The notes beneath the pieces were generated by a model. The model had not been told where the DNA came from and made no database searches. It saw nothing but the letters and a program-made list of their open reading frames with translations. The position numbers and the translations under genes are program-made. This document shows, piece after piece, positions 1 through 17,910 of a stretch of DNA of 35,432 nt (position 1 is the stretch's first letter; the number at the start of each line of letters is the position of its first letter). Source of the stretch: Betaproteobacteria bacterium (GTDB lineage: Bacteria > Pseudomonadota > Gammaproteobacteria > Burkholderiales > Rhodocyclaceae). Location: the NCBI GenBank assembly GCA_947478755.1, contig CANJXH010000009.1:1-35432 (forward strand), in the 5' to 3' direction.

Positions 1-573
1 GATGGCAAACCGCTCGACCCCAAGGACCTGATTGCCCATTTCTTCGTCGTGCTCACCGCTGGGCACGACACGACTTCGTCGGCGATAACCGGGGGCATCA
101 AGGCATTGCTGGAACACCCGGATCAACTTCAGATGCTGCGAGCGGAACCTTCAAAAATTGCAAGTGCCGCGGAGGAAATCCTGCGTTGGGTGACCCCTAC
201 CGTGCAGTTTTGTCGCACGGCGACACAAGACTATGTATTGCGTGGCCAGAACATCCGAAAAGGGGACAGTCTGGTGCTGCTCTATTCGTCAGGCAATCGG
301 GACGCGGAGGTCTTCAACGATCCGGACAGTTTTCGAATCGATCGCACCCCCAACCCCCATCTTGGATTTGGGGCCGGCGTGCATTCCTGCCTAGGATCGC
401 AATTGGCCCGAATGGAAGTTCGCTGCTTTCTGAAAGTGCTCCTAGAACGCATCGAGCATCTGGAACTGGCTGGACCCACCCCGTATATCGCGGCCAATCT
501 TGTAACAAGGTTGGAGAGATTGCCAGTGCGCTATGCCTTTTACCAAGGCAGCCCGATACGCGATGTCAGTTGA
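1..573 (+). CDS. cytochrome P450, C-terminal part (5' end outside window)
   Basis: Frame 1 is open from base 1; I-helix AGHDTTSS, EEILR (ExxR) and heme-ligand motif FGAGVHSCLG. Confidence 0.95.
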   Translation, partial: DGKPLDPKDLIAHFFVVLTAGHDTTSSAITGGIKALLEHPDQLQMLRAEPSKIASAAEEILRWVTPTVQFCRTATQDYVLRGQNIRKGDSLVLLYSSGNRDAEVFNDPDSFRIDRTPNPHLGFGAGVHSCLGSQLARMEVRCFLKVLLERIEHLELAGPTPYIAANLVTRLERLPVRYAFYQGSPIRDVS

Positions 574-632
574 GCCGTGGCTCGTCAGTCGTAACAATTG
601 CCGAGGCGAAGCCGAATCTCGATTGGGCAGTA

Positions 633-1166
633 TCAAAAAAAGACGTTCAGATTGTTCGCCAACACCGTCGCGTGATCCAGATATACAGTGCGTGACGCAA
701 TCCGAAAGCTTTCGCCATCGGGTCGAAGTACATCGACCCGGGCACCAGTAAAGACCTCTACTTCGCGATCGAGCCGATAACGATGAACCTGGAAGCAGCT
801 GCGCGCGTCCAGCTCACCGCCTTCCAGTTGTCTGGCCTGAACGTTGGTGATCAGGTGGCGCTGTATTGACGGTGGGTCTTCGGCCCACGCCCTGCCCGAG
901 GCCATGCGGATCACACGCCGTTGCAGCACGGACTTGTCGTCATCGAAATGCGCGAGCCCCGCATCTCCAAGTGAATCGCTGAACTCATTGACCGCCGTAT
1001 TGCGATGAATGGGCACCAGGTAGCGCGTATCGTCGGTGAACAGGTTCAGCCATGCCATGAAGTCACGCCCGTCAATGAGGGCCGCCTCGGCGTAGTAGAA
1101 CTGCTCAACGCGGTGCTGCAACATTAACGCGTCAAGCGCGGTCCGGGTGTCTTGTAACGCGCTCAT
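633..1166 (-). CDS. aromatic-ring-hydroxylating dioxygenase, small (beta) subunit
   Basis: ORF trimmed to MSALQDTRTALD...; beta-subunit/SnoaL-like pattern (QFYYAEAALIDGRDFMAWLNLFTDDTRYLVPIHR); start overlaps the alpha-subunit stop (ATGA). Confidence 0.9.
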   Translation of the reverse strand: MSALQDTRTALDALMLQHRVEQFYYAEAALIDGRDFMAWLNLFTDDTRYLVPIHRNTAVNEFSDSLGDAGLAHFDDDKSVLQRRVIRMASGRAWAEDPPSIQRHLITNVQARQLEGGELDARSCFQVHRYRLDREVEVFTGARVDVLRPDGESFRIASRTVYLDHATVLANNLNVFF

Positions 1167-2500
1167 TGGTGACCTCCTTCTGCATAGCGCGCTTGTGCGG
1201 CCCGGTCCATCTCGCGCCAGTTCTCGCTGGTGAGCATTTCGAGCCACCGATGGTAGAAGCCGCGCGCGGCCACTTCGGAATAGGCGCGCTGCGTCACCCG
1301 GCCCGGATAGTCGGGGTCAGGACCACGATTAACGCGGTCCCCCATCTGCACAGCGAATGGATGGCGGCGACCGATGGCACCCTTCATGGTGCGCTGGATG
1401 CCCGACCACACGGCGCTGTCTTCGGTCTCGAACAGGCCACCCGCACCGAAGGCGCGCTGCGAATTCTTCGCCCACAACTGCTTCACTTCGGGCGGCGCTG
1501 CTGCGGGCGACAATTGCCAGGTCCAGATTTCCGATTCGTCCACGCTGACCGGATGAATCACGCGTATGTGATTGAAGCCGAACAGCACCACGCCGGTCGG
1601 GAACAGTGTCATGTGCGCAGCCTGCACGTCGGCGCGAGCCTTGCCGACGCGCGCCACGGCTGCGGCGTACGAATCGTCGACCAGATAGTGTTTGACGCGC
1701 TCGCCCAGCGTCAGGTCAAGTATCGGACCATCGGTCCACAAGCCCATGCCGTGCCCTTGCGGCGACGTGAATTGCCGGCCGGTCACGGGCAACTGCATGT
1801 TGCTCATGTCCGCACCGGGCGGCACGCTCGCGATCAGCGCCGAGATATGGGTCATCTCCGGATGCAGCATGTCATTCACGAATTGTTCGGCGATGATTTT
1901 CCAGTTCGCCTTGACGATCCATTTGTTCACACCCCCCATCAACTCCATCCCGCCCTCGAAGCGATCAAGCGGGGTATCGAGGTACCAAGCCGCGTCGCCG
2001 AGATAATCAATCAGCGTCGGCGCCGACGGATCCCAGGTGCCAAATACAAGTCCCTTATAGGTATCCACCTGTGCCATCTGCACGCAGCCCCAGGCCGACT
2101 TGTCGAAACCTTCCGGAAAGACGATGTCCTCGTAGGGAACGCTGCGCAAGCTACCCGCCGTATCCCATGACCAGCCGTGGTAGGTGCAGGTGATGGCCTT
2201 GACGTTGCCGGAATCCTGGCGGATCAGTTCATTGCCGCGATGGCGACACTGGTTGAGCAAGGCCTTGACCGAGCCATCCTTTTGCCGCACAACGATCACG
2301 CGGTCGGCGCCGACATAGGTATTGAAAAAATCGCCGGGCGCGGGGATCTGGCCCGCCGGGCAGAGCAGCACCCAGGCGCGGCCGAAGATACGGTCGAGTT
2401 CCAGCTGGTAGATGGCTTCGTCGGTAAAAACGAGGGGGCTCAAGACGCCCTCGTTCATGTCGCACAGGCTGCGGACATCACCAAATCTCATATCAGACAT
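1163..2500 (-). CDS. Rieske aromatic-ring-hydroxylating dioxygenase, large (alpha) subunit
   Basis: Rieske motif CRH...CTYH (NQCRHRGNELIRQDSGNVKAITCTYHGWSWD) and D-x2-H-x4-H mononuclear iron motif (NDMLHPEMTH). Start trimmed to MSDMRFGDV. Confidence 0.94.
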   Translation of the reverse strand: MSDMRFGDVRSLCDMNEGVLSPLVFTDEAIYQLELDRIFGRAWVLLCPAGQIPAPGDFFNTYVGADRVIVVRQKDGSVKALLNQCRHRGNELIRQDSGNVKAITCTYHGWSWDTAGSLRSVPYEDIVFPEGFDKSAWGCVQMAQVDTYKGLVFGTWDPSAPTLIDYLGDAAWYLDTPLDRFEGGMELMGGVNKWIVKANWKIIAEQFVNDMLHPEMTHISALIASVPPGADMSNMQLPVTGRQFTSPQGHGMGLWTDGPILDLTLGERVKHYLVDDSYAAAVARVGKARADVQAAHMTLFPTGVVLFGFNHIRVIHPVSVDESEIWTWQLSPAAAPPEVKQLWAKNSQRAFGAGGLFETEDSAVWSGIQRTMKGAIGRRHPFAVQMGDRVNRGPDPDYPGRVTQRAYSEVAARGFYHRWLEMLTSENWREMDRAAQARYAEGGHQ

Positions 2501-2549
2501 TCGCGTACTCCTCGTCGAAGGCCGGCTGGTGCTGGCGTCGTTATTCTGT

Positions 2550-3233
2550 CTATAGCTGCTGCGCAATCGTCTTGCGCATCATGAAAAACATGACAAAGAA
2601 CCACGGCCCGAACAGCACTGCCGGCAACCAGAAAGCCAGCAGGCCATCCCAGGCAAAGGGCCCGGTCTTGAAAAAGGTCACCAGCGCGCCCGGCATGAAC
2701 AGCAGGCCGGTCCAGATATTGAAAAATCCTAACCACCGCGGGAAGACCGGTTTGATGTTGGTATCGGACAAAATGCAAAAGCCGATGGTGAGGTTCTGCA
2801 GCGCTGCCGGCGTGCCCGGCATCACCACCATCAGCCAGGCCAGATCAAAGAGCAGATAAGTGAGTTCCGGCCCGCGGTCCGGGCGGAAGGCCACGGCAGT
2901 CATCAGCATCGCGCCGACGATAATGATCACGCCACCCGCACATCCGACTGCGAGTTGGGCGTAGGTCCACATCGGATTCTCTTTTTCGATGCGTCGCAAC
3001 TGGGTCGAAATGGCACCGACCCACACGCAGTTCAGCGTGCCGGCAAACATCATCAGGATCATGCCGAAGCGGATGCCAGTGGTGTGCTCCTGGTAATAGG
3101 CCGCGACTTCTGTCGGCGTCATGGTCGCCGGCAGCGGCGGCAGGAAGCCGGCAAACGGCCAGAACGACAGGCCGAACATGATGATGGTGACGGGACCTGC
3201 CCAGGTACCGATTAGTTGCGCGCGCTTGTTCAC
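2550..3233 (-). CDS. hypothetical multi-pass membrane protein
   Basis: 227 aa with several hydrophobic segments; co-oriented and closely spaced with flanking genes. Confidence 0.8.
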   Translation of the reverse strand: MNKRAQLIGTWAGPVTIIMFGLSFWPFAGFLPPLPATMTPTEVAAYYQEHTTGIRFGMILMMFAGTLNCVWVGAISTQLRRIEKENPMWTYAQLAVGCAGGVIIIVGAMLMTAVAFRPDRGPELTYLLFDLAWLMVVMPGTPAALQNLTIGFCILSDTNIKPVFPRWLGFFNIWTGLLFMPGALVTFFKTGPFAWDGLLAFWLPAVLFGPWFFVMFFMMRKTIAQQL

Positions 3234-3257
3234 TTGGCTCTCCCTTGTTGTTGTGGC

Positions 3258-4832
3258 TTACATCGTGCGCAAAAATTCTTTCGCCGCCAGGCGCCCCGGC
3301 ATGCCGGAGACGCCGCCGCTCGGGTGTGCTCCCGCGCCACCGAGGAACAGCCCTTTCACCGGCAGACGATGATTGCCCAAGCCAAGGATTGGGCGCATCG
3401 GGCCAAAGGCGGGGAGGTCGACGTGCAGGGTGTGGCCGTTGGTCGCACCCTTGCGGCGCTCGATGTCGAGCGGTGAATCGATGAAGCGGCCGATTTCCAG
3501 CGAGTCGATGCCCGTGTAGTACTGGCTGACGTGGTCGATCATGGACTGCGTTGCTGATTCGGCCAACGAGTCCCAGCCCTGTTCCGGATGCAGCGGCACG
3601 TGGTTGGTGTACATATAGAGCACGTCCTGCCCTTCGGGCGTCTGGCTCGGTTCTTCTTCATTGGGGATGCAGCAGAAGGTGATCAACTCCTCCGACTTAG
3701 GCATCACCCCGCCGCCGGCTTTCATGTAGGTCTTGCCGCCCTGCTCGATGTCACCGATGAAGGTGAGCGGTCGTCTCAGGTTGAGGTCGTCGCGCCGCTT
3801 CTTCTGGTGCCGGTCGAGGCTCAGCCTGCCGGAGAAAGCCAGGTCGGCCTTGAGCACCGCCGTGCCGTGCGCGTTGCTCGGGATATGCTTTGCGCGTCCC
3901 ATGTCCTGCTGCGACAGCGTGCCCTCGGGCAGCAGACGGGTAAACAGCGTGATCGGGTCGCAGGTAGCGATGACGCCCTTGCTTGCCGCAAGCGTGCGGC
4001 CATCCTGCAGCACAACGCCGCGCGCGCGGCCGCCCTCGACGACGATCTGCGAGACACGCGCATTGGTCTCGATGCTGTTAGCCCCCCCACCGATCGACTT
4101 CAGCCGCGCCGCCATCGCATTGGGGATGGCTTGCTGGCCGCCCACGGCGCGATAGCAGCCGGTGCTGTGGATGAAGGCAATGAACATGTGCGACACGGCG
4201 GTGCCGGGGCGATCGCTCGGGTACTGAACGTGCGGGATGCCGTTGATGAAGTTGCGCACGATCGGGTGCCTGAAGTTGCGATCTAGATACTCGTCGGCAG
4301 AGGCAACAAAAAAGTCGGCGAACTTCTTCCAGTAGGGCATGGTCTTGAGTGCCGCCATGCCCAGAGTAGCAATCGACGCGAAATCCGGGCGTGCCAGGTT
4401 GGTCAGCATCGCGGGCACCGCCACCTTCATCAGCCGGTCAAGGAAGATGGCGTATTCGAGATAGGCCTTGGCATCGTCGGGCGAGAAATACCTGATCTCT
4501 TCCGCCGTCTTGGCTGCATCGCGCCAGAAGCACAGAGATTCACCATCCGGATGCAGGTAGGCATAGGCCGGGTCCGAGGCCTTGGTTTTGAGGCCATGGG
4601 CGGCAAGGTTGAGTTCTCGCGCCACCGGGCTCACCTGCCAGAACACAAGGTCCATCGAGCAATAGTTCACCAGATGATTGGGTGCGTCGGGAAAAGGGTA
4701 GCCCGATGCACTCATGCCGCCGATGGTGGTGTTCGCCTCCAGCACCTTCACCTTGAGGCCCTTGTCGGCGAGGTAGTTGGCGGTAGTCAGGCCGTTGTGC
4801 CCGGCACCGATCACGAGTACGTCATGTTCCAT
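3258..4832 (-). CDS. NAD(P)/FAD-dependent oxidoreductase, phytoene desaturase/CrtI-like
   Basis: N-terminal dinucleotide-binding motif VIGAGHNGLTTANYLADKGLKVKVLEAN; C-terminal GLFLGGAGAHPSGGVSGMPGRLAA. Confidence 0.9.
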   Translation of the reverse strand: MEHDVLVIGAGHNGLTTANYLADKGLKVKVLEANTTIGGMSASGYPFPDAPNHLVNYCSMDLVFWQVSPVARELNLAAHGLKTKASDPAYAYLHPDGESLCFWRDAAKTAEEIRYFSPDDAKAYLEYAIFLDRLMKVAVPAMLTNLARPDFASIATLGMAALKTMPYWKKFADFFVASADEYLDRNFRHPIVRNFINGIPHVQYPSDRPGTAVSHMFIAFIHSTGCYRAVGGQQAIPNAMAARLKSIGGGANSIETNARVSQIVVEGGRARGVVLQDGRTLAASKGVIATCDPITLFTRLLPEGTLSQQDMGRAKHIPSNAHGTAVLKADLAFSGRLSLDRHQKKRRDDLNLRRPLTFIGDIEQGGKTYMKAGGGVMPKSEELITFCCIPNEEEPSQTPEGQDVLYMYTNHVPLHPEQGWDSLAESATQSMIDHVSQYYTGIDSLEIGRFIDSPLDIERRKGATNGHTLHVDLPAFGPMRPILGLGNHRLPVKGLFLGGAGAHPSGGVSGMPGRLAAKEFLRTM

Positions 4833-4913
4833 TGGTGTTTCCTCCGAAATTTTGTGAGTTCGGCTTAATGTTGGTCAACAAAGCAATATCTGGCGGGGAC
4901 CCCATTTCGACGA

Positions 4914-6470
4914 TTACTTGAGCATGGTCCGAGCGGTATTTCGTCCGGGCCATCCGTTGTAGCCGGACATCGGATGGGTGCCGTGGCCGGTCAGCCAGAG
5001 ACCATGAATCGGTGTGCGGTAGCCGGCGAGCGAGGGGCTGGGCCGCCACATGGCAGTCTGGGATGGAATGAGGTCGAGCGCGCGGGAAGATCCACGGTAC
5101 ACCCACGGCTGGTTGAACTCTGCCGGACTGTTGGTGTGCACACCGATGATGCTTTCTCTCAACCCGGGGGAGTACTCCTCGATGTGGTCAAGCACCTTGT
5201 CGAGATAGAACGGTTTGTGGTCGGGCCATGTTCTTCCACCAGAGAGCGTGTGAGGTACGGCACCACACCAAATGTAGGCGACATCGCCCTGGCTGCCGGG
5301 CGGCACCATGGTCCGATCCAGCACGGACGGAATCGCCATGAAGAACGGCACCTTGTCGGCAATTTCACCGCGGCGGTTCGCCGCCTGAAGCCGCTGGATG
5401 AAGTCGACACTGGGGGCAATCGTGATGCCTCCAAAGTGGTCTTCCGGCAGCGCGTGTCTGGGGAAGCTCGGGCGCCGGGAAAGGGCGAGGTCGGCCTTGA
5501 AGTGACTGATCCCGTTGCCCGCCACCTGCATGAGGCGAACCTCGTCCTGCACGATCGGTGGCACCGAAGCCTTCTCGATGAGGCGGGTGAACAGGCTGGT
5601 CGGATCAGTCGAAGAGACGATTTCGCTGGCCTGCAATTCTTCGCCATTCTGCAGGACAACACCACGCGCCCTGCCGTCGCGAACGATCACGCGCTGCACC
5701 GGTGCCGAAGTGCGCACCTCGCCGCCAGCCGCCCTGACACAGGCAGCCAGCGCATCGGTAAAGGCGCCAGACCCGCCTACGGCACGCTGCAGCGGATACA
5801 GGTGCATCATCGCAAAGTAAAGGAATATGCCGGTGTTCAGCGGTTCCTCAATCTCCTGAAAAGTTCCTGTCACGGTACTTGTCGCGAAAAATGCCTTGAT
5901 CTCCTCGCGCTCGAAGCCGTTGATGATCTGCAGCGGGGACATCATCATGATGCGCGCGCCCGGCAGCAGGCTCTTGCGATGCTTCACCGCACGCCGGATC
6001 AGGCTCGCTATCGTGCGCATGCCCGGCCTGGTCGGATGGTCCATGAGATAGGGCAGGATGGTATGCGTCAACGCCATGATCGGCTGCATGAGGCGTTTGT
6101 AATAGTCGGCATCATGCTGCGACAGGCGTGCGATCGATTCGCAAGTGCGGTCGAGGTCATGGAACATCGACCATGAGGTGCCCTCCGGGCCCAGGTAAGT
6201 GTTATGGGGATCCGGGTAAACCCATTCGAGGCCGTGGCGTGAAAGATCGAGCTCATCCACCACCGACGGACGAATCATCGTAAACGGGAACTCGATCCCG
6301 TAGGTGTTCATGCGATACCCCGGTGCACCGGGGACTTCCTCGGTCAAACAGAATCCACCAACTTGCTTGTTGGCTTCCAGCACGAGAACCCGCTTACCCG
6401 CTTTGGCAAGGTAGGCAGCACAGGTCAGGCCGTTATGTCCGGCACCAATTACGATTACGTCGTGTTCCAC
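4914..6470 (-). CDS. NAD(P)/FAD-dependent oxidoreductase, phytoene desaturase/CrtI-like (paralogue of neighbour)
   Basis: VIGAGHNGLTCAAYLAKAGKRVLVLEAN; C-terminal GLWLTGHGTHPMSGYNGWPGRNTA. Confidence 0.9.
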   Translation of the reverse strand: MEHDVIVIGAGHNGLTCAAYLAKAGKRVLVLEANKQVGGFCLTEEVPGAPGYRMNTYGIEFPFTMIRPSVVDELDLSRHGLEWVYPDPHNTYLGPEGTSWSMFHDLDRTCESIARLSQHDADYYKRLMQPIMALTHTILPYLMDHPTRPGMRTIASLIRRAVKHRKSLLPGARIMMMSPLQIINGFEREEIKAFFATSTVTGTFQEIEEPLNTGIFLYFAMMHLYPLQRAVGGSGAFTDALAACVRAAGGEVRTSAPVQRVIVRDGRARGVVLQNGEELQASEIVSSTDPTSLFTRLIEKASVPPIVQDEVRLMQVAGNGISHFKADLALSRRPSFPRHALPEDHFGGITIAPSVDFIQRLQAANRRGEIADKVPFFMAIPSVLDRTMVPPGSQGDVAYIWCGAVPHTLSGGRTWPDHKPFYLDKVLDHIEEYSPGLRESIIGVHTNSPAEFNQPWVYRGSSRALDLIPSQTAMWRPSPSLAGYRTPIHGLWLTGHGTHPMSGYNGWPGRNTARTMLK

Positions 6471-6610
6471 TGTTTCCCCTCCGTGAACTTTTTATAGCCC
6501 CGCAGAACTGCAATCATCGTGGCGGTATACATGAGCAATTCGCCGAATTACACTCTTTCGCGACAACGATCACTTGACCTGACGCGATCAAGACTTGACT
6601 GGGAGTGCAT

Positions 6611-7609
6611 ATGGGAGACCTCACCGGCAATGCCGAATCGACAAAATCAACGGCCAGGGGTGGTCGCCGGTTTGAAGCCAGCAAGGTCAAGAGTTTCCTT
6701 GCCTCCGACTTCTTTACTGCCGATTACGAAGTCGTTGCCGGCGATGCATCCGAGCTTGCCTATCTCGGCGGCGTCCACCTCGGTGCTGTCGACGTCTTGC
6801 GCCATGAGGCCGTCGGCGTACACCGTGGCCACCGACGCCTGCAGCATTACCGGCAGGACCATATCGACGACTTCCTGATCTCGGTCCCTGTCCGCGGCCG
6901 AACCACAGTGATGCAGGCAAAAAGCAGTATCGCGATCGAGGCCGGCACCTTCATCATTTCGGCCACCGCCAAACCGATCACCTTCACCTCGGAATCCGCC
7001 AACTCGCATAGTACCTTCCAGACCTATCACGTCAAGGTATCGGGCTCGATGCTGCGGGTGCGCGTTCCACAGATCGACCTCTACTGCCACCATCCCATAA
7101 AGATCGACAATGGTGCCGGCGAAATCATGACTGCGATGTTTGCGCTGGCGATCAAGCAAGGCGCGGAGCTCACACTAACGCAGGCACGCAATTTCGGCGG
7201 CATGGTGATCGACGCCATAGCCAACGCAACGCGCGATGCCCCGGAGCTGGTGAGCTTCCACCCCGATTCGCGCCAGACGGCCTACGCGCGTATCCGTGAC
7301 GAGGCAGGACACTTCATCGCCTGCAACCTTTCCAACCCGGCGCTCGACCCGGCGCTGGTCGCCAAGCATTGCGGCATCTCGGTGCGCCATCTGCATGCCG
7401 CCTACGCTGCCACCGCGCAGACACTGGGATCGGTAATCAAGGAGACACGACTCAAGGGTTGCCGAATGGCGCTGCAAAGCGCAGAGTTGCGCGAGCGCAC
7501 GGTGTTCGAGATCGCCATGCGCTGGGGCTTCAGCGACCCCGCCTATTTCAGCCGCGCCTACAAGGCCATGTTCGGCGTCTCGCCGCGTGCCGATCGTGAC
7601 AGGGCTTGA
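6611..7609 (+). CDS. AraC family transcriptional regulator
   Basis: C-terminal AraC HTH (LVAKHCGISVRHLHAAYAA...FEIAMRWGFSDPAYFSRAYKAMFGVSPRADR). Start could be 6605 or 6611. Confidence 0.93.
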   Translation: MGDLTGNAESTKSTARGGRRFEASKVKSFLASDFFTADYEVVAGDASELAYLGGVHLGAVDVLRHEAVGVHRGHRRLQHYRQDHIDDFLISVPVRGRTTVMQAKSSIAIEAGTFIISATAKPITFTSESANSHSTFQTYHVKVSGSMLRVRVPQIDLYCHHPIKIDNGAGEIMTAMFALAIKQGAELTLTQARNFGGMVIDAIANATRDAPELVSFHPDSRQTAYARIRDEAGHFIACNLSNPALDPALVAKHCGISVRHLHAAYAATAQTLGSVIKETRLKGCRMALQSAELRERTVFEIAMRWGFSDPAYFSRAYKAMFGVSPRADRDRA

Positions 7610-7650
7610 GATGCCCCGTGCAGACGATCCAATGCGAGGGATCAGGTCGT

Positions 7651-8793
7651 CTACGATTTCAATGCCTGAAACGTCTTTACCGCACGCTGTATCGATGCCG
7701 CGCCATCGGCCGGCCCCAGCACCATGGGCGTCATGTCGGCAATACTGACAAAGTCGGCGCCTGCATCGATGTACTCGCGGCAGACGCCAGTGAGGTAATC
7801 CGGCGTGCCGCAGTAAAAGGACTTGCGCACCAGTTCGTTTGAGGTACGGGCAACGATGTCGCGAATCTCGGCGGCCGGGTGCTCGGCGGGCAGCCAGTGG
7901 GTCGGATAGTTCCAGCCCTCGGGCATCACGGGTGTGATGCCGACTTCCGCCCAGTTCTTGCCATCGACCCGCCCGTTGCACGCTGCGAAGTACTTGATCA
8001 GCGGGTTGTCGAGCACGACATCGAGTACATCGGGATCATCGTGCGTCGCGCACACCAGCCAGATGCCCATGCCGAATTTCTGCGGATCGCGGCCATTGGC
8101 TTCGACCTTCTCGCGCAGGCTGCGCACCAGCTGGGCGAACTTGTCGGGGTTGGTGATCGCTTGCGGAACGGCGGCCTCGAAACCATCCGCATGTTTGGCC
8201 GCAATCTCCAACAGCGTCGGCCCGCCGCCCAGGGCCCAGAACTCGGGTCTGATCGCCGGCCTTGCATCGCCCATGAAGGCATTCGTGTAATTCCAGAAGT
8301 GGCCTTCGTATGAAATGGGTTCCTGTGCATCGTAGAGCTTACGGACCAGTGCCAGCGTGTCTTCGAGCCGCTTCAGGCCCTCGGCACGCTTGTAGCCGAA
8401 AGGCTTGGTCTGCCGCGCCTCGCCGGCGCCGATCGCGCACACGACCGGCCCGCTGGTCGCGTTGGCAAGTGTCAGCAGGCGGCGCAACAGTTCAGCAGGA
8501 CCCGAACGCAGCGAGTCGGTCGACAGTCGCAAGCCAATGTCGGGATTTTTTGCCGCGATGTAGCCTGCTTCGATGAAGGGATCATAGAGGGCGCCGCCGT
8601 CAACGAAGTCTGCGGCAGGCGAGTTCTTTGGTGTCCACAGTTCCTTCGGAAACCAGGTCGACAGTTCATCCCAGAGGTAGACGAAATCGACGGCACCGGT
8701 CCCTCGCAGGGCGCCAGCATATTCCGCCAACGCCGGCAAGGGTGTGGTGCGGTGATCGTCGAGCGGAATGGCGGTGCTTATCTTTCTGGACAT
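7651..8793 (-). CDS. LLM class (luciferase-like) flavin/F420-dependent oxidoreductase
   Basis: Bacterial luciferase-like layout: DPFIEAGYIAAKNPDIGLRLSTDSLRSGPAELLRRLLTLANATSGPVVCAIGAGEARQTKPFGY. Confidence 0.88.
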   Translation of the reverse strand: MSRKISTAIPLDDHRTTPLPALAEYAGALRGTGAVDFVYLWDELSTWFPKELWTPKNSPAADFVDGGALYDPFIEAGYIAAKNPDIGLRLSTDSLRSGPAELLRRLLTLANATSGPVVCAIGAGEARQTKPFGYKRAEGLKRLEDTLALVRKLYDAQEPISYEGHFWNYTNAFMGDARPAIRPEFWALGGGPTLLEIAAKHADGFEAAVPQAITNPDKFAQLVRSLREKVEANGRDPQKFGMGIWLVCATHDDPDVLDVVLDNPLIKYFAACNGRVDGKNWAEVGITPVMPEGWNYPTHWLPAEHPAAEIRDIVARTSNELVRKSFYCGTPDYLTGVCREYIDAGADFVSIADMTPMVLGPADGAASIQRAVKTFQALKS

Positions 8794-8805
8794 GTTCTCT
8801 TTCCT

Positions 8806-9900
8806 TCAGTGATTGGTGGCCGGTCCAGCCACCTCGGCGGGAATCGTCACGCGATTGGTCCGAGAGGTCTTGGTCGCCAGCGGCAATTCCGGCCGCGTGC
8901 AGTCATAGTCGGCATTCGGTCCGCACACCTTGCCCAGCAGGTAGGACGGGATGTTCTTCGGGAAAGGATCGGAATGCAGACCACCGAAGGCAACCGGCAC
9001 CGTATCGCCGATGAAGAACACCATGTTGAATACGCCGGCCAGCGCGAGGAAACGGACAAACTTCTTGCCGGCACGGCTCAAATTGAGCTTTTCGACACCA
9101 CGCTCGGCGAAGGTCAGACCGTGGTCGTCGCGCCAGAAGTAGATCGAGGCATACACGGCCCAGCAGAAACCCCAGAGCAGGAACTCGTAAATGGGAAACT
9201 GGTAATACTCGCCTGCCCAGAGCGTCAAGCTTTGCACCGCGCCGGCATACACGTACATGCCAGTACGTAGAAAAAATCCTTCGAGCACCAGGTCCAGCAG
9301 CATGAAGCCGATGTAGACCGCAAGAAAGAGGCGCGCCGAGTTCCAGTCCGGCCGACGTGCCTGTATCCAGCGCATGACGCGTGCGCCGGCGAGCATCGGA
9401 AAAAAGACAAACCAGCAGGCGTACGAAAGACCCCAGGCGATCGGGGCCTCGGGGATGTACTGCGCGTTGGGCGACACCCAGCCCGGGATGTTGCCGTACC
9501 AGGAACCGAAGTTGGTGAATACGGGACTGAGCAGCCCGGTCGGCGCAAACCAGTTGATCGCCGCGTTTTGCCAGTACAGCGTGATCAGGGCAAGCACCAT
9601 GAGGCCGTCAGATGAAATCTCGCCATCGCGCCGCCACGGTTTGATGACGTACCCGTACATCGCGACCGCGAACAGCACGATGGTCGAGGTCTCGATGATG
9701 CGAGCGACAACAAACATCCATGCCGGTGGCACGTCCGGCCCGAGAATGGGGACCGACTTGAAGTTCGGGCCGAACACCCAGGAACCAAACAGGTAAATGC
9801 TTAGGACGACGAGCGTCGCGCCGATCGCCGCCCACAAGGTGACCGGTGCAAAGCCCCCGGTCGAGCGGGGCAATAAGGTGGATTGCGCATTCATGGACAT
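8806..9900 (-). CDS. AveC-like (spirocyclase AveC family) multi-pass membrane protein
   Basis: 364 aa polytopic protein with AveC-family-like sequence (WAAIGATLVVLSIYLFGSWV...YVYAGAVQSLTLWAGEYYQFPIYEFLLWG). Recognised without a search. Confidence 0.7.
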   Translation of the reverse strand: MSMNAQSTLLPRSTGGFAPVTLWAAIGATLVVLSIYLFGSWVFGPNFKSVPILGPDVPPAWMFVVARIIETSTIVLFAVAMYGYVIKPWRRDGEISSDGLMVLALITLYWQNAAINWFAPTGLLSPVFTNFGSWYGNIPGWVSPNAQYIPEAPIAWGLSYACWFVFFPMLAGARVMRWIQARRPDWNSARLFLAVYIGFMLLDLVLEGFFLRTGMYVYAGAVQSLTLWAGEYYQFPIYEFLLWGFCWAVYASIYFWRDDHGLTFAERGVEKLNLSRAGKKFVRFLALAGVFNMVFFIGDTVPVAFGGLHSDPFPKNIPSYLLGKVCGPNADYDCTRPELPLATKTSRTNRVTIPAEVAGPATNH

Positions 9901-9986
9901 GCTCTACCTCCTGTGAGTTTTTTTGGTCGCGAGGCGGCTCGTGCCGGCTGGCGTTATGGAACGTGTCGCAGAATATATGAAGTATT

Positions 9987-10006
9987 TGCTTTATTTCTGC
10001 TTTATT
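9987..10006. repeat. short direct repeat TGCTTTATT x2, 11-bp period
   Basis: TGCTTTATT at 9987-9995 and 9998-10006. Confidence 0.6.
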
Positions 10007-10012
10007 ATTCAG

Positions 10013-10027
10013 CTGTCAGAATGACAG
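10013..10027. promoter_or_regulatory. candidate TetR-type operator palindrome CTGTCA-GAA-TGACAG
   Basis: Perfect 6-bp arms in the divergent aveC-like/tetR intergenic region. Confidence 0.5.
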
Positions 10028-10099
10028 ACCACGCCCACCGCAACAGGAGGCACTTACAGCAAATGCGGTGACGATCGGCGATCAGCGGCTTACGGAAAA

Positions 10100-10744
10100 A
10101 TGAGAAGAAAACCCAAACAACAGCGCTCGGAACAGACCGTCGACAAGATCAAGCAGGCCATGCGCGAGATCGTCCTCGAAAAATCCTATGCCGCTGCCAC
10201 CACCAACGAAATCGCAAGGCGCGCCGGCGCCAATATTTCGTCGCTTTATTTCTTCTTCCCGAATCGCGAAGCCATCGCGCAGGCAATTTTCGAGGAGACA
10301 TCACTCAAGATCGCCCAGGTCACGCATCGGCTGGTGTTGCAAAGCCTGACCAAGCCGTTGAAAGAAGGCATGACCGACATGGTGACGGAAATCATCAACG
10401 CACTAGATGAGGAGCAGGCGTTTCTGCAAAAACTGATTGAACAGGTACCCGACCTGCGCGAAACCGCCAACGCACTGGAACAGGAACGACTCGGGCGCCA
10501 CGTGGCGCGCCTCTATATCGAGCACCACCTGGGCAAGCAGGACGAAGAAGAAATAGCCTGCAAACTGTTCTTCGTCCAGCACCTGAGCTTCGACCTGATG
10601 CGCCGATATGTGGTCGAGCGGCCGGACAATATCTCACGCGACCGCTTCATCACCGAACTGTCATCGCTGGTCACCAGTTATCTCACGGCCCAGGGCACAC
10701 CTGCAGTGAAAAAGCCGCAACGCGCGGCACGCAGGCGCAGCTGA
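10100..10744 (+). CDS. TetR/AcrR family transcriptional regulator
   Basis: N-terminal HTH typical of TetR: AAATTNEIARRAGANISSLYFFFPNREAIAQAIF. Confidence 0.93.
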   Translation: MRRKPKQQRSEQTVDKIKQAMREIVLEKSYAAATTNEIARRAGANISSLYFFFPNREAIAQAIFEETSLKIAQVTHRLVLQSLTKPLKEGMTDMVTEIINALDEEQAFLQKLIEQVPDLRETANALEQERLGRHVARLYIEHHLGKQDEEEIACKLFFVQHLSFDLMRRYVVERPDNISRDRFITELSSLVTSYLTAQGTPAVKKPQRAARRRS

Positions 10745-10765
10745 TCCGCGCCGGGTTGGTGGGGA

Positions 10766-12028
10766 CTAGGTTCTCCGCCGCAACTGGAAAGCCCGCTTGT
10801 AGGCGCGTAGCTCCCGATCGCGTTGTTCCGGTGAAACACTGGGGGTGTCCGCGGGCATGTGCTGCTTCACTTCGTCGATCTTCACCTTGGTGGCTGTCGG
10901 CTCGGGTGCGCTGCTGCAGCGCGTCCAGCGGCCGTAGAGCATGCCTTTGGCGAAGCCGCTGTTGTCGAACCAGTTCGGCACGCCCGGGTCCTTCGCTGAC
11001 AGCACGGCGCGGAACTTGCCATCCTTGCTGATCTTCGCCTGGAAGCCGTTGATCGACGCGATGCGGCGTGCCGGGTCCGTGGTGCGCCACCAGTCATCGG
11101 CGATCTGAAAATTCCAGTAGGCGCATTGTTTCGGCAATTCGGTCTCGACGATCAGGGCCTCATCATCCTTGAGGTCGTACACCATCTCCGGATAGAACTG
11201 ACCACCGACACCACCGGACGTGCTGTAGTCGCGCACGACAAACTTGTTGGTCCCGTGCTGCTGCAGCGTGCCCTTGTACAGGCGCATCCCGAAGGTGATC
11301 CAGTTCTCCACCCAGCCGCTCACCTTGCGTAGCTGCTGGTCGATCTGTTCCTTGCTCGGGCGCCCTCGGCTGACGGAACGATCAAGTCGATCGATGGCAA
11401 TGCGCGCGTCGATCTCCTTTTCCCAGTCATACGAAATCTGCCGGATCACCATGTAGTCGGCGCCAGCATCCAGTTTCCACCAGTCGCCCTTGTAGCCGGC
11501 GGGACGCTCGGCACTGAGGATCACGTCGAAGGCGCCGTTCTTGCCAAGCTTCAACTTGTCTATGCTGTACGAAGCCAGCGTCGCGCCGAGGCCGATGGGC
11601 GCACCTTGCGTGAACATCTTGGCGGCGGCCACCTGGAAATCAACAATGCGCGTCGTGCCGCGATAGCCCGAAAGGCGATAGACACCCTTGGGATCGAGCG
11701 GTGTGAACTGGTAGATGTCGTCCGGGTTGGGAAAGGCGGCGTCGAACACCTGACTGAACAAGGGCCACAGGTCCGGGTGCTCCGGGTCGGCGTACAACAG
11801 GCCGTAGTAGGCCTGCGAAATCTCGGTAAACATGAAGCGGTACATCTCCGCACGGCGCTGCGGATCGTCGCCATCCGGCATCTGCGCTACCAGTCGATCA
11901 GCCACGCCTTTGAGGGGGTCCACATAGGCCGAGAACTCCGTTCCTGCGCTGGCCGTTTCGTCGGCGAATGCGGGCGACAGACTCAGCAACGATGCTGCCA
12001 TTGCCACCAACAAGCTTATCCGTTTCAT
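10766..12028 (-). CDS. secreted protein of unknown function (possibly DUF1214-like), paralogue of 14705-15976
   Basis: Signal peptide MKRISLLVAMAASLLSLSPAFA; C-terminal half aligns closely with the 423-aa paralogue (e.g. FRAVLSAKDPGVPNWFDNSGFAKGMLYGRW). Confidence 0.8.
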   Translation of the reverse strand: MKRISLLVAMAASLLSLSPAFADETASAGTEFSAYVDPLKGVADRLVAQMPDGDDPQRRAEMYRFMFTEISQAYYGLLYADPEHPDLWPLFSQVFDAAFPNPDDIYQFTPLDPKGVYRLSGYRGTTRIVDFQVAAAKMFTQGAPIGLGATLASYSIDKLKLGKNGAFDVILSAERPAGYKGDWWKLDAGADYMVIRQISYDWEKEIDARIAIDRLDRSVSRGRPSKEQIDQQLRKVSGWVENWITFGMRLYKGTLQQHGTNKFVVRDYSTSGGVGGQFYPEMVYDLKDDEALIVETELPKQCAYWNFQIADDWWRTTDPARRIASINGFQAKISKDGKFRAVLSAKDPGVPNWFDNSGFAKGMLYGRWTRCSSAPEPTATKVKIDEVKQHMPADTPSVSPEQRDRELRAYKRAFQLRRRT

Positions 12029-12045
12029 GTCATTTTCCTTGTTGA

Positions 12046-13242
12046 TCAACCCGCAAGCACGCGGGGAAAGCGTTTGATATAGCCGGCAAAGCGTTGGTGA
12101 ATCTTTTCCTTGCTGAGACCGAATCGCTCCATCGTGTAATCGTAGGTGCCGAAGTGGCTCTGCGGCCGGCGTGCCTCGTAGTCGGCGAAGGCCTTGCGTG
12201 CTGCCGGCGTCAACTCCCGGCCGGCGCGCGCATAGATCTGCGCGATGACGTCGATGCCATGGTCGCGGATGTCGTCGTAGTACACGTCGACGATGTGCGA
12301 CTCGCCATGCGTGGCACGGAAGGCGAGGTTGTTGTCGGTGGCCGCACCAAAGAACTCGTTGAAGTCGCTGCCAAGCTGAACCGTATCGGTATGCGAGCAG
12401 TAGATCTCGCGGTTGCATTCCAGCAAGGACGCAAAAGAGGTCACCGACTTGGCCGGATCGCGATGGCAGTGCACCACCGTGGCATCGGGAAATGCCAGCA
12501 GCAGGTTTTCGAATTCGCCGATGTGCGCCGGCGACTTGAGTATCCACGGCCTGCCCCTCGCGCCGCCATCCTGCCACTGCAGGTATTGCAGCATCTTGTA
12601 CACATGGGCATAGCTCGAACGCTGACCGTGCTTCTCGATGTAGGCGCGGTGCTTCGGCGCATGGGTCTTCATCGACGAAAAAGTGGACTGGAAGGTCATC
12701 TCCATGATGAACCACTCCTCATCCGGCTCCATTGCCTCCATCGCGTGGCGCGCCATCACCTTGGGAAAGTGCGTCGCCAGCAGCTGCTCGTATTGCAACG
12801 CAAGGCCAATGCGGGGGTCGGGCGTCATGCCCTCGCTGCCGGGCAATGGCGACGGGAAAAGGATGCGCCACACCTCCAGCCGTTGCACGCCCGGGTCGGC
12901 CGACATCATGCGCTGCAGCTTGGACGTACCCGTACGCGGCAGGCCGGTGATGATGATCGGCTTGACGATCGGGTCATCAAACATCTCGGGGTGTGCCTTG
13001 CTGTCGCGTACGAATACCAGCCGGTTCGACAGCAGGCGCACGATGTCCTGAAACGTCGCGCCGATGCCGGTCTCGCTGAGCCCGGCCGATTCACGCAGGT
13101 CTTCGAGCAATATCGTCAAGCCTTCGACAAAATTGCGCTCGCCGAAATCCTCAAGGCCCGTGGCCTGCACCGCAGCGACCATCAAGGTCTCGACATTCAG
13201 GCTGGCCATGGTCAAAGGGGATGCCGCGTTGAAATCAGTCAT
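12046..13242 (-). CDS. sulfotransferase family protein
   Basis: PAPS-binding-like loop IITGLPRTGTSKLQRMMSADP; later PWILKSPAHIGEFENLLLAFPDATVVHCHRDPAKSVTSFASL. Confidence 0.9.
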   Translation of the reverse strand: MTDFNAASPLTMASLNVETLMVAAVQATGLEDFGERNFVEGLTILLEDLRESAGLSETGIGATFQDIVRLLSNRLVFVRDSKAHPEMFDDPIVKPIIITGLPRTGTSKLQRMMSADPGVQRLEVWRILFPSPLPGSEGMTPDPRIGLALQYEQLLATHFPKVMARHAMEAMEPDEEWFIMEMTFQSTFSSMKTHAPKHRAYIEKHGQRSSYAHVYKMLQYLQWQDGGARGRPWILKSPAHIGEFENLLLAFPDATVVHCHRDPAKSVTSFASLLECNREIYCSHTDTVQLGSDFNEFFGAATDNNLAFRATHGESHIVDVYYDDIRDHGIDVIAQIYARAGRELTPAARKAFADYEARRPQSHFGTYDYTMERFGLSKEKIHQRFAGYIKRFPRVLAG

Positions 13243-13288
13243 TGCGCTTTGCTTTCCGTGATGGGTTCAGAAGGTGCGACCAGCCGTA

Positions 13289-13408
13289 TCAACGTGGCGC
13301 CGACTTTTTTCGGGTGCCGACAAGCAGGCAGGGATACCAGGCCCAGGCCACCGCCGCAATGGCGACCAGCGGCACCACCAGCACCGGCGAACGACGTTTG
13401 AAACGCAT
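13289..13408 (-). CDS. candidate 39-aa small membrane protein
   Basis: ATG at 13408 preceded by GGAGGAGC; MRFKRRSPVLVVPLVAIAAVAWAWYPCLLVGTRKKSAPR*, a single hydrophobic segment flanked by basic residues. Below the ORF-track length cutoff. Confidence 0.45.
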   Translation of the reverse strand: MRFKRRSPVLVVPLVAIAAVAWAWYPCLLVGTRKKSAPR

Positions 13409-13618
13409 CAAGCTCCTCCCCTTTTTTATTGGGCCGTCAGGCCACTATTTTGATGCCTGATTTTAGCCGGCATCGGCCGCTTCGGACGCGATCACCATGC
13501 CGTGATTTGAGCATAAGGGCAGTGCCTTTTCCTGCAGCTGCAGGATGAAAGCTTGTTTACTTTTTCGTTGCCACAGCCCCTAGCGTGCTGAGGCCGAGAG
13601 GACGCCCACTTGAACTGA

Positions 13619-14146
13619 TCAATACCCCGGCGGTGGCGGCGGTGGCGGTGGAGATGTCGGCGTGCGTTGCTGTGCTTGCACGCCTTGCTGCTGCAGAGAG
13701 TCCCTGCCCGCCATCGAGGCCGGTACCGGCACGCGCTCGCCCTTGGCGTACATGCACTGGATGTAGGCATTGTCGTAACGCTGCTGGCTGCCATAGGCCG
13801 AGGCGTCGGCTGCGCCTGCGCCCGCCATGCTGCCCATGATCAGCCCGGTGCCTGCGCCCGCGCCGGCACCCTCATGCCCGCCGATCGCCGCGCCGGCCAC
13901 GGCACCGATGGCCGTGCCCACCGCCGCGCTGCGCACCGCCGCATTGTTGGCGGACTGGCTGGCTGACGCGCCGCCAATCTGCACCAGGGCATAGTCACGA
14001 CAACTCGCATCGTCGTAACGAAACTGGTCGAAGGTCTTGCTGGTGCCGGGCAAGGCCATCACGCTTGGCCCCGTGGGCACTGATGCACAACCTGCCAGCA
14101 CCAGCGCCCCCGCTGCTGCCACCCAAAGTTTCTGCCTGATCATCAT
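13619..14146 (-). CDS. glycine-zipper lipoprotein
   Basis: Lipobox LVLAGCAS; Gly/Ala zipper AVGTAIGAVAGAAIGGHEGAGAGAGTGLIMGSMAGAGAADA; C-terminal poly-Pro. Confidence 0.82.
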   Translation of the reverse strand: MMIRQKLWVAAAGALVLAGCASVPTGPSVMALPGTSKTFDQFRYDDASCRDYALVQIGGASASQSANNAAVRSAAVGTAIGAVAGAAIGGHEGAGAGAGTGLIMGSMAGAGAADASAYGSQQRYDNAYIQCMYAKGERVPVPASMAGRDSLQQQGVQAQQRTPTSPPPPPPPPGY

Positions 14147-14154
14147 GGTTCCTT

Positions 14155-14574
14155 TCACGGCCCGGGCGGCGTCGGCGAAACCTGCTGCCAGCCGCTCGGG
14201 CATTGGCTCACATAAGGGTAATAGCGCTTCGACGCCGGGCAGTAATACCAATAGCTGCTCGCCTGCGGTGCGGCCGGCGCCGGTGCCATCTGAGGTTGCT
14301 CGATATACACCTGCGGTTGCGGTTGCACGATCACCGCGGGCGGGTAGTAATACGGTTGCGGCGGGTAATACCAGCCCGGCCCCCACCAGGGACCAACACT
14401 GAAATCGAGAAAGATGCGGCTGCGAGCGTGTCCTTCATAATGCCCGCCACCGCCGTAGTGACCGCCACCACCATGGTGACCTTGGCCGCCGCCGTGTCCA
14501 CCTTCGGCCCATGTCGTGCCGACCATTGCCGACACCAAAAAAACGGATGCAATACACGCTTTGAGAATTTTCAT
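14155..14574 (-). CDS. secreted Gly/His-rich protein with Pro/Tyr-rich C-terminus
   Basis: Signal peptide MKILKACIASVFLVSAMVGTTWA, then GGHGGGQGHHGGGGHYGGGGHYEGH and YWYYCPASKRYYPYVSQCPSGWQQVSPTPPGP. Confidence 0.8.
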   Translation of the reverse strand: MKILKACIASVFLVSAMVGTTWAEGGHGGGQGHHGGGGHYGGGGHYEGHARSRIFLDFSVGPWWGPGWYYPPQPYYYPPAVIVQPQPQVYIEQPQMAPAPAAPQASSYWYYCPASKRYYPYVSQCPSGWQQVSPTPPGP

Positions 14575-14704
14575 GATTCGACTCCAAAGGTCCCAAGAGG
14601 GATTAACGTCTTTGTAGCCGATTCGTTACCCGACGATGCGGGGTGTTTTGTAAGCGCGTGTTGCAGCCATCCCCGCTATAACGGGGGATGCCAAGACAGC
14701 AGTG

Positions 14705-15976
14705 TTACCAGCGCTTTCTTAATTGCGCACCGGCACGGCGTTCGCGCAGGCTGGCGTCGCGCTGGGCTGGCGTAACCACGGGCGTGTCGGCCGGCAGATA
14801 CTTGCGCACGTCGACAAGCTTTACCTTCGTTACCGTTGGCGTCGGCTGGCTGTCGCATTGCAGCCAGCGGCCGAACAACGAACCCTGCGCGTAGCCGGCG
14901 TTGTCCAGCCAGTTGGGCACGCCAGGGTCGCTGGCCGACACCACGGCGCGGAAATTGCCATCCTTGTCGATGCGGGCGGTGTAGCCGTTGAGATTGCTCT
15001 GGCGATTGGTGTAATCCACCGTGTTCCACAGGCTGTCGTTGGTGACGATGTTCCAGTAGCGGCAGTGCTTCGGTACCTGCGTCTCGTAGATCAGGGCTTC
15101 ATCTGCGGCAATGTCGATCAGGCCCTCGACGTAATACTGCTTGGTCGTGAAGCCGCCCTGTGCCGAAAGATCACGCACCACCACCTTGTTGATCAGGCCG
15201 TCCGCGGTGTAGCTCGTCAGCCGACCGGTGGGTATGCGCGTCCAGTTGTCTGCGGCGATGGAAATTCGGCGCAACGCATCGGCAATCTCTTCCGGCGTCA
15301 TGCGCGGCTTGACTGCCGGCGTATCCAGGCGCTGGATGCCGAAGCGGCCATCCACCTCTTTCAGCCAGTTGTAGGCGATCTGCCGCACCATGACATATTG
15401 CGTGCGTTGGTCCATCTTCCACCAGTCACCCTTGTACCCGGCGGGGCGCTCGCTGCTGAGCAGCACCGAGAAACTGCCATCCTTGCCGAGATGCAGACTG
15501 TCGACATCGTAGTTGGCGAAGGTCGGCATCATGCCGCCCTGTCCGTGCGGATAAAAATCGCCACTGCCGATCTGGAAATCGATCAGGCGCACCGTGCCGC
15601 GGTAGCCGGATATTTTGTATGTGCCCTTGCCATCCAGCGGCGCGACGTAATAGGTATCGTCCGGATTGGCCGAACCGATGCTGTAGGCCTGGTTGAATAG
15701 CGGCCAAAAATCCGGATGCGCCGCATCACCGACGAAATACGCCATGTAGGCCATCGATAGCGTCTTGAACAACTGCTGGTAAAGCTCCTGCCGTTGCTGC
15801 GGATCGTCCGGGTTGGACATCAGCGACGTCGCCTTGCCAGCCAGCGGCAACAGCGGCTCGACATAACTGCGCCATTCGCGATCAATGGTCGCGGCGGTGT
15901 CGGGCGAGACATCGGCGAATGCGGTGGCGCTGTTGAGCAGACAGGCCAGCGCCAAAATGGAAATCGACTGTTTCAT
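14705..15976 (-). CDS. secreted protein of unknown function (possibly DUF1214-like), paralogue of 10766-12028
   Basis: Signal peptide MKQSISILALACLLNSATAFAD; shares RPAGYKGDWWKMD, DEALIYETQVPKHCRYWN and FRAVVSASDPGVPNWLDNAGYAQGSLFGRW with its paralogue. Confidence 0.8.
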   Translation of the reverse strand: MKQSISILALACLLNSATAFADVSPDTAATIDREWRSYVEPLLPLAGKATSLMSNPDDPQQRQELYQQLFKTLSMAYMAYFVGDAAHPDFWPLFNQAYSIGSANPDDTYYVAPLDGKGTYKISGYRGTVRLIDFQIGSGDFYPHGQGGMMPTFANYDVDSLHLGKDGSFSVLLSSERPAGYKGDWWKMDQRTQYVMVRQIAYNWLKEVDGRFGIQRLDTPAVKPRMTPEEIADALRRISIAADNWTRIPTGRLTSYTADGLINKVVVRDLSAQGGFTTKQYYVEGLIDIAADEALIYETQVPKHCRYWNIVTNDSLWNTVDYTNRQSNLNGYTARIDKDGNFRAVVSASDPGVPNWLDNAGYAQGSLFGRWLQCDSQPTPTVTKVKLVDVRKYLPADTPVVTPAQRDASLRERRAGAQLRKRW

Positions 15977-16198
15977 AGCATTTCTCCTCGTATTTTTCTG
16001 AACGCAATATTTCAATCTACCACCGACCGGACCACCGGGCGCAGGTACATCGCTTACCGTTATGGTGCGGCGGCCAGGGTGCCAACAAAAACATTTCTGC
16101 ATCGGCATCTTGTCGCCGCCATTCGTCGCCGTGCTATCTTTCACCCCCCGGCGCAGCAGCGCTGCATTTACCTACAACAAGCAATCAAGGAGAAAACC

Positions 16199-17176
16199 AT
16201 GGATATCATTGGCGGCGGCAAGATGCATGTTTACCCATCTTCGGATGAATACCCCCAAGAGAAGGGCGATCACGAGCACTTGCAGGAAAGCTATGTGCTC
16301 CACTTTTTCGACCGGGCGCAGGGCTGCGGCGGCTACTTCCGCATCGGCCATGAACCCAACTGCAACGGCGGTACCATCGCGCTGTGGAGCAACATCGTCA
16401 CGCCCGAAGGATTTTTCCATCGCGCGGACGACGTGAAGATCGCTCCCGGCGACATCACCAAGAACGGCTTCTCCGCCGACAAGGGTGCACTGGCCTACCA
16501 CTGGGATGGCAAGCAGATCACCTGGACGGTGAAGGAAAAGGACATCACTGCCAACCTGAAGCTGGAAGATTTCCACCCTGCAGTCGACGGCTACAAGCGC
16601 GACGGCAAGGTGGGCGACTATGCAGCAGCCCACGTTGAAGTGGCACTGCGCGTGACCGGCACGATCACCTCCCACGGCAAGACCTATCAGGTCGATGGCC
16701 TCGGCATCCGCGACCACGGCTGGGGCGTGCGCCACTGGAATGCCATGCTGTCGCACCGCTGGACGGTGGCGACCTTCGACAAGGACAACTCCTTCTGCGC
16801 AGTGGCGATGCATCTGAGCAGCGACGTGATCGCCAAATTCGGCTGGGTGATTCGCGGCGACAAGGTGATCTTTGCCGACAAGGTCGACATCCTCGCCAAA
16901 ATGGAAGTGGACGGCACCACCAACCGTGGCGGCACGACGACCATGACGCTCAGCACCGGCGAGATCTACACCGCGCACTTCACCCCGGTCACGCCATGCA
17001 TCAACTCATGGATCCACGGCACCGACTGCGTCGACAATTTTTCGCAGGTCACCTGGGGTGACAAGATCGGCGTCGGCTGCTTCGAGACCTCGAACAACAT
17101 GCACGCCGGCACCCGCCGTCCGCAAGTGTTCGATGGCGCCCTCTCGGCCAGCGGTTGGTACCCGACCAAGAAGTGA
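16199..17176 (+). CDS. DUF7064/AttH-like (calycin-like) protein
   Basis: 325 aa, start MDIIGGGKMHVYPSSDEYPQEKGDHEHLQESY after AAGGAGAAAACC; YQVDGLGIRDHGWGVRHWN resembles AttH/DUF7064 proteins. Family call tentative. Confidence 0.65.
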   Translation: MDIIGGGKMHVYPSSDEYPQEKGDHEHLQESYVLHFFDRAQGCGGYFRIGHEPNCNGGTIALWSNIVTPEGFFHRADDVKIAPGDITKNGFSADKGALAYHWDGKQITWTVKEKDITANLKLEDFHPAVDGYKRDGKVGDYAAAHVEVALRVTGTITSHGKTYQVDGLGIRDHGWGVRHWNAMLSHRWTVATFDKDNSFCAVAMHLSSDVIAKFGWVIRGDKVIFADKVDILAKMEVDGTTNRGGTTTMTLSTGEIYTAHFTPVTPCINSWIHGTDCVDNFSQVTWGDKIGVGCFETSNNMHAGTRRPQVFDGALSASGWYPTKK

Positions 17177-17190
17177 TTGCGATTGGTGGC

Positions 17191-17222
17191 AAAAAAAAGC
17201 CCGCGCGATGCGGGCTTTTTTG
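17191..17222 (+). terminator. Rho-independent terminator
   Basis: GCCCGC-GCGAT-GCGGGC stem-loop flanked by A8 and T6, just after the 17176 stop. Confidence 0.9.
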
Positions 17223-17292
17223 TTATTCGCCAGTAAAAAACCAGAATCGGGGAATTGATCAATGTAATCCCATGCTATACACTGCGGACAGT

Positions 17293-17571: not shown

Positions 17572-17583
17572 AAGGAATTGAAA

Positions 17584-17901: not shown

Positions 17902-17910
17902 CAACATGCG

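Follow-up and report, generated by a model that had tools for sequence, protein, structure and literature searches.

Gene content of the locus

The stretch analyzed here (the window) is 35,432 nt long and is an entire contig (C9; CANJXH010000009.1) of a draft Rhodocyclaceae genome (GCA_947478755.1; 2.63 Mb, 193 contigs, 95.9% complete, 0.45% contamination). Its G+C content is even, at about 60%. An original prediction, made from the letters alone, placed a single oxidative gene cluster in its first 16.1 kb. By profile search we found all of the families named there, at or near the predicted positions: a cytochrome P450, a Rieske oxygenase, two CrtI-like flavoproteins, an LLM-class enzyme, an AveC-like protein, a sulfotransferase, and AraC and TetR regulators (Table 1). 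We also confirmed that no housekeeping genes lie among them. Those of the window begin near 25 kb (tRNA-Met, UbiH-type, DsbC, HflX, RdgC, and MltA), with none before. However, the predicted list had overlooked two DUF1214 proteins and an unnamed membrane protein, here called TMp. The boundary at 16.1 kb was also too early, because related genes (DUF7064/7065, aldehyde dehydrogenase, and APH-like kinase) continue to about 21.4 kb.

Table 1. Genes of the oxidative cluster in the window
Feature	Position	Strand	Evidence and remarks
Cytochrome P450, C-terminal 190 aa (heme domain)	1-573	+	PF00067 5.6e-29
Rieske oxygenase beta subunit	633-1247	-	PF00866 6.3e-38
Rieske oxygenase alpha subunit, HcaE/BphA clade	1163-2566	-	PF00355, PF00848
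TMp, unnamed ~230-aa multi-helix membrane protein	2550-3233	-	No Pfam, NCBIfam, or PHROG match
CrtO/CrtI-type FAD oxidoreductase 1 (CrtO1)	3258-4832	-	PF01593; CrtO model 239 bits
CrtO/CrtI-type FAD oxidoreductase 2 (CrtO2)	4914-6470	-	PF01266/PF01593; CrtO model 300 bits
AraC-family regulator	6605-7609	+	PF12833, PF14525; divergent to the CrtO2-Rieske group
LLM-class flavin/F420 oxidoreductase	7651-8793	-	PF00296 2.4e-25; F420-dependent relatives in PDB
AveC-like multi-helix membrane protein	8806-9900	-	PF17198 4.8e-50
TetR-family regulator	10100-10744	+	PF00440, PF17918
DUF1214 protein a	10766-12060	-	PF06742 4.7e-05, slightly under curated cutoff; 45% to protein b
Sulfotransferase-family protein (Sulfotransfer_3)	12046-13242	-	PF13469 1.3e-32; RTGTS motif; PDB 2zq5, 2z6v
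DUF1214 protein b	14705-16144	-	PF06742 1.3e-06
DUF7065/DUF7064 protein, recurrent cluster partner	15794-17176 (homology from about 16100)	+	PF23213 3e-48, PF23212
Aldehyde dehydrogenase	17964-19451	-	PF00171 5e-72
APH-like small-molecule kinase, recurrent cluster partner	20038-21420	+	PF01636 7.6e-23

There are three tight minus-strand groups. The first is CrtO2-CrtO1-TMp-Rieske alpha-Rieske beta, with gaps of 81, 24, -17, and -85 bp. The second is AveC-LLM, 12 bp apart and divergent from the TetR gene, and the third is sulfotransferase-DUF1214 protein a, with a gap of -15 bp. This spacing suggests that the genes inside each group are cotranscribed. A promoter scan of the window gave signals no more than chance.

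The AveC-like protein scored 170.6 bits against PF17198 (curated cutoff, 26.6), which places it in that family. Structure prediction for the two membrane proteins was too weak to use. An AlphaFold model of the AveC-like protein, built from a shallow alignment of three sequences, had a mean predicted local distance difference test score (pLDDT) of 58 and a predicted template modeling score of 0.63, and a PDB fold search returned nothing below an E value of 0.1. The single-sequence model of TMp had a pLDDT of 52.5. TMp relatives precede genes like those for cytochrome c oxidase subunits 3 and 4 in four plasmid records (Pseudonocardia, Novosphingobium, Rhodococcus, and Mycobacterium). A second unnamed membrane protein family, of ~265 aa, was also noticed (9771-10565 of stretch L033, with relatives in L046, L035, L072, and L085). 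It recurs beside AveC-like genes and a KstD gene and has no Pfam or NCBIfam match.

The P450 lost its N terminus through the contig end, not mutation, and the remaining fragment retains the FxxGxxxCxG heme motif, the ExxR motif, and the I-helix AGxDT motif. Over the 190 residues compared, its nearest solved chains were a CYP125 ancestor and P450terp, along with other CYP125, CYP142, and CYP124 chains. The Rieske genes encode a two-subunit ring-hydroxylating oxygenase, as judged by PF00355, PF00848, PF00866, and the iron-ligand motifs: in the alpha subunit, the Rieske ligands and the mononuclear iron motif D-x2-H-x4-H are intact. The closest solved structure to this subunit is biphenyl dioxygenase (1uli). 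Scores against the 3-phenylpropionate dioxygenase (HcaEF) equivalog models were well short of the cutoffs (NF042946, 435 bits against 830; NF042947, 127 against 230). The true start of the beta subunit is probably near 1166-1196. CrtO1 and CrtO2 are about 32% identical to each other, and the N-terminal motif that binds flavin adenine dinucleotide (FAD) is intact in both. The prediction of paired CrtI-like flavoproteins had the family right, but these proteins are CrtO relatives and far below the cutoff of 1,000 bits for the beta-carotene ketolase equivalog NF045689. For DUF1214 protein a, the open reading frame (ORF) reaches 12715, and the homologous part stops at about 12060.

Clusters of the same families across the host genome

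Beyond the window, gene calls came from a simple selection of ORFs and their resemblance to window genes, without a trained gene finder. The host genome as a whole has 12 AveC-like genes, 12 strong CrtO relatives and two weak matches, 37 TMp genes, and 12 P450 genes (14 match rows, with two genes each split in two). The one genus mate sampled has no AveC gene, one CrtO gene (plus two weak matches), one P450 gene, and one weak TMp match.

We read the AveC contigs of the host and another 15 contig stretches, in which these families recur in differing combinations, with clusters on contigs C29, C53, C3, C30, C58, C6, and C28. Contig C29, for example, has TMp, DUF1329, two AveC genes, a Rieske oxygenase, APH, DUF1214, a sulfotransferase, and an amine-oxidase-like flavoprotein. 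C30 has two sulfotransferases, DUF1214, APH, DUF7065, and CrtO, and it runs into ORFs that by eye are cell-division-like. C82 has three TMp genes, an amine-oxidase-like protein, an aldehyde dehydrogenase, and APH beside ORFs that by eye are DnaA-, DnaN-, and GyrB-like. Relatives of the APH-like kinase are on contigs C29, C86, C53, C30, C82, and C3, and a 40% relative of the DUF7065/DUF7064 protein is near the AveC gene of C53. Genes for DUF1329 proteins occur on three AveC contigs (C29, C47, and C83) and next to a KstD gene on C62. The LLM, sulfotransferase, and DUF1214 families also recur in host clusters; they were not seen with the window type of AveC in other genomes. The predicted gene set is real, but it is one of many variable clusters that draw on a dozen or so families with genome-wide expansion, and not a single dedicated cluster or one fixed pathway.

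Because the C82 and C30 clusters adjoin housekeeping-like ORFs, the oxidative clusters look chromosomal. Contamination or a chimera was considered as the main explanation and rejected: the window contig itself carries HflX, RdgC, and UbiH-type genes, estimated contamination is 0.45%, and DnaA/DnaN/GyrB-, DnaX-, and cell-division-like ORFs were seen by eye on other cluster contigs.

Contig C62 has a KstD gene that exceeds the equivalog cutoff (797.8 bits against 789). It lies with genes for a short-chain dehydrogenase/reductase, a P450, a ferredoxin-like protein, a DUF1329-like protein, and a ~265-aa membrane protein (L072). C62 probably encodes a cluster for dehydrogenation of steroid or related rings.

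Related loci in other genomes

Relatives were sought in samples of genomes: the one genus mate and family (101), class (369), and phylum (399) samples. AveC-like proteins are rare in these Pseudomonadota. An AveC relative was present in 2/101 family-sample, 1/369 class-sample (the host itself), and 3/399 phylum-sample genomes, the host being counted in each. The window AveC as a query found no close relatives in the genome contig collection, whereas a profile of three AveC paralogues found two loci, one in a metagenome-assembled genome (MAG) from moss (three AveC genes) and one in a Hydrocarboniphaga MAG (eight AveC genes). Both MAGs were thus found through AveC. The moss MAG was deposited as Rhodospirillales (L045), but the Mla-type operon and LipB-, PBP-, and RlpA-like ORFs flanking its AveC genes look betaproteobacterial by eye, and the taxon label may be wrong.

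In a tree, the window AveC paired with that of contig C105 of Hydrocarboniphaga sp. MAG RYN_594 (46% identity; support, 100/97). On C105, a CrtO-type flavoprotein gene (38%) directly precedes the AveC orthologue; farther out are TMp, some 5 kb upstream, and a Rieske gene, some 4 kb downstream. Unlike the window, C105 has a MalT/LuxR regulator and an ORF the size of a TonB receptor, and no LLM, sulfotransferase, AraC, or P450 relative was recognized in the 40 kb read. The C105 CrtO shares a clade with window CrtO1, yet its closer relative is the CrtO of host contig C58. Therefore, the AveC-CrtO pair as a whole is not established as orthologous.

The original prediction named a lack of co-occurrence in other genomes as refuting, and this outcome was not seen: co-occurrence holds in part, with clusters of AveC, CrtO, TMp, and Rieske genes in both MAGs. 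Contig C2 of Hydrocarboniphaga has three AveC genes with CrtO, amine-oxidase-like, TMp, AraC, and Rieske relatives. Moss contig C55 has CrtO, Rieske, and AveC genes, and moss contig C120 has an amine-oxidase-like gene, AveC, TMp, and CrtO. Contigs of both MAGs also carry what appear from their sequences to be coenzyme A (CoA)-type genes. We counted genes no more than 15 kb from AveC under a null of uniform placement, which gives rough p values. In Hydrocarboniphaga, these were 7/13 TMp genes, against an expected 0.34 (p about 1e-8), and 2/7 CrtO genes (p about 0.013). In the moss MAG, they were 2/3 CrtO genes (p about 0.0015) and 1/5 TMp genes (p = 0.11). On Hydrocarboniphaga contig C6 (L046/L063), a single AveC-like gene sits amid five relatives of the APH-like kinase and three amine-oxidase-like flavoproteins.

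Proposed function and alternatives

We favor the reading that the window holds one of many modular clusters that oxidize, and most likely break down, polycyclic or terpenoid/steroid-like hydrophobic compounds. We give this a probability of about 0.5, and in it the substrate, the direction, and every reaction are inferred. Hydroxylation of the substrate would be the task of the P450 and the two-subunit Rieske oxygenase, and its oxidation or desaturation that of the LLM enzyme and the pair of CrtO-type flavoproteins. The AveC-like protein, embedded in the membrane, might then carry out a nonredox step on hydroxy-ketone products: dehydration, ketal or hemiketal ring closing or opening, or isomerization. 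The aldehyde dehydrogenase would oxidize side-chain aldehydes, and the sulfotransferase and APH-like kinase would attach polar groups. TMp could be a membrane partner, and AraC and TetR may govern separate divergent gene groups.

CYP125, CYP142, CYP124, and P450terp-type enzymes oxidize sterol or terpenoid substrates. A terpenoid/steroid-like substrate, as first predicted, therefore fits a P450 fragment that is nearest to CYP125 and P450terp. Uptake and catabolism are favored because four ORFs beside the AveC/CrtO modules of Hydrocarboniphaga C2 are TonB-dependent receptors and host AveC contig C47 encodes a receptor plug domain. The window has no polyketide synthase or terpene synthase, which also fits breakdown. 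Further points in favor are the gene content, the expansion of the AveC, CrtO, P450, and TMp families in the host, their recurrence in other host clusters and in the two MAGs, the CoA-type genes of those MAGs, and the KstD equivalog beside a P450 on C62. Several observations weigh against this reading. The window itself lacks a TonB receptor, a CoA ligase, and a redox partner for the oxygenases, and its complete gene set was found together in no other sampled genome. Hydrocarboniphaga P450 genes are not near AveC beyond chance (2/31, p = 0.19), and all of these co-location p values are too optimistic because tandem paralogues are not independent. Finally, the host has no full-score HsaC-type dioxygenase: the best match, in a genome that is 95.9% complete, is partial, at a contig end, and scores 38.9 bits.

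The same enzymes might instead build or remodel lipids, decorating a hopanoid, carotenoid-like, or sterol-like terpenoid, whether endogenous or scavenged, to give specialized lipids, with the sulfotransferase and kinase adding the polar groups. Sulfotransferase and APH-like genes do attach groups rather than cleave carbon chains, and CrtO relatives act on carotenoids. The characterized AveC is biosynthetic (PMC13303154, PMC6642093). However, no scaffold synthase or cyclase was recognized in the window, its Rieske oxygenase is of the HcaE/BphA type, and the Hydrocarboniphaga modules have TonB receptors, which together make this unlikely, although it is the strongest competitor. Slightly less probable is that the cluster is an accessory part of canonical 9,10-seco steroid degradation, modifying side chains or rings ahead of the KstD, KshA, and Hsa steps. 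In its favor are the P450 fragment nearest to CYP125, the KstD equivalog, and the listing of Hydrocarboniphaga among predicted steroid degraders (PMC4810484). HsaC/BphC-like dioxygenases, scoring 245 to 272 bits, are also encoded in both the moss and the Hydrocarboniphaga MAG. However, KstD is on another contig than the window, and none of the four single-subunit Rieske oxygenases scanned in the host genome matched a steroid-hydroxylase model. Because no full HsaC-type dioxygenase was found despite KstD, the canonical pathway is not supported in this host.

It is also conceivable that no joint pathway exists and that the genes are neighbors only because expanded oxidative and lipid families crowd this genome. 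The 37 TMp genes and many other family members are scattered genome-wide, and every cluster is a different combination. However, the tight codirectional groups with overlapping or near-touching genes, the Hydrocarboniphaga AveC orthologue that again adjoins CrtO, TMp, and Rieske genes, and the greater-than-chance proximity of these genes in the two MAGs make this the least probable explanation.

There is also a more speculative reading. The 12 AveC-like and 37 TMp proteins might form a lineage-specific system of interchangeable nonredox cyclase/isomerase or partner modules for P450/Rieske/CrtO clusters. In that case, AveC-type chemistry would serve the catabolism of spiroketal or polycyclic terpenoids in general and would not be special to macrolides. 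We regard this as doubtful. A 2.6-Mb genome with so many AveC-like and TMp proteins (the latter with no family name in the libraries searched) amid oxidative enzymes apparently marks a lineage with unusual chemistry for hydrophobic compounds. Overall, the interpretation in the original prediction is partly supported.

Other features of the window

At 17193-17949, a HigBA toxin-antitoxin cassette fills exactly the interval between a pair of 32-nt bidirectional terminator-like repeats that are 97% identical (17193-17224 and 17918-17949). The layout looks like insertion into a terminator that was duplicated in the process. A second pair of terminator-like repeats (88%) at 24576-25059 encloses about 420 bp beside tRNA-Met. 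A weakly LtaS-like sulfatase-domain gene (21636-23726) was left out of the cluster.

Comparison with known systems

The original prediction did not recognize the combination as a named pathway, and the literature and family models that we searched give it no name. Plasmid pSA2 of Novosphingobium resinovorum SA1 (283-308 kb) has a P450, a CrtO relative (38%), a phosphotransferase, a Rieske oxygenase, TMp, and an LLM enzyme within 15 kb. Unlike the window, it has no AveC match, cytochrome c oxidase subunit 3/4 genes come after its TMp, and no Rieske beta subunit is annotated beside the alpha subunit. M. branderi was rejected as a matching cluster: AveC is beside a P450 there, but the paired FAD proteins are not CrtO relatives.

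Mycobacterial CYP125, CYP142, and CYP124, which act on cholesterol or terpenoid side chains, are the nearest solved relatives of the window P450, which in contrast is known from 190 residues alone, and its membership of such a pathway in this host is conjectural. The CrtO beta-carotene ketolase/CrtI family resembles the window pair in its N-terminal FAD motif and over the full CrtO length, whereas the window has no carotenoid biosynthesis genes.

In avermectin biosynthesis, AveC is a spirocyclase/dehydratase that catalyzes nonredox spiroketalization and dehydration (PMC13303154, PMC6642093). Our literature search gave no useful account of AveC-like functions outside polyketides and no characterized role outside spiroketal polyketide biosynthesis. 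The window protein shares the Pfam family PF17198 and a multi-helix architecture with avermectin AveC. However, profile searches found no polyketide synthase domain in the window, and the protein may still act like AveC on another substrate. Both the window AveC and the Hydrocarboniphaga orthologue have CrtO-type neighbors, and the two provide a defined starting point for studying AveC-like function outside macrolides.

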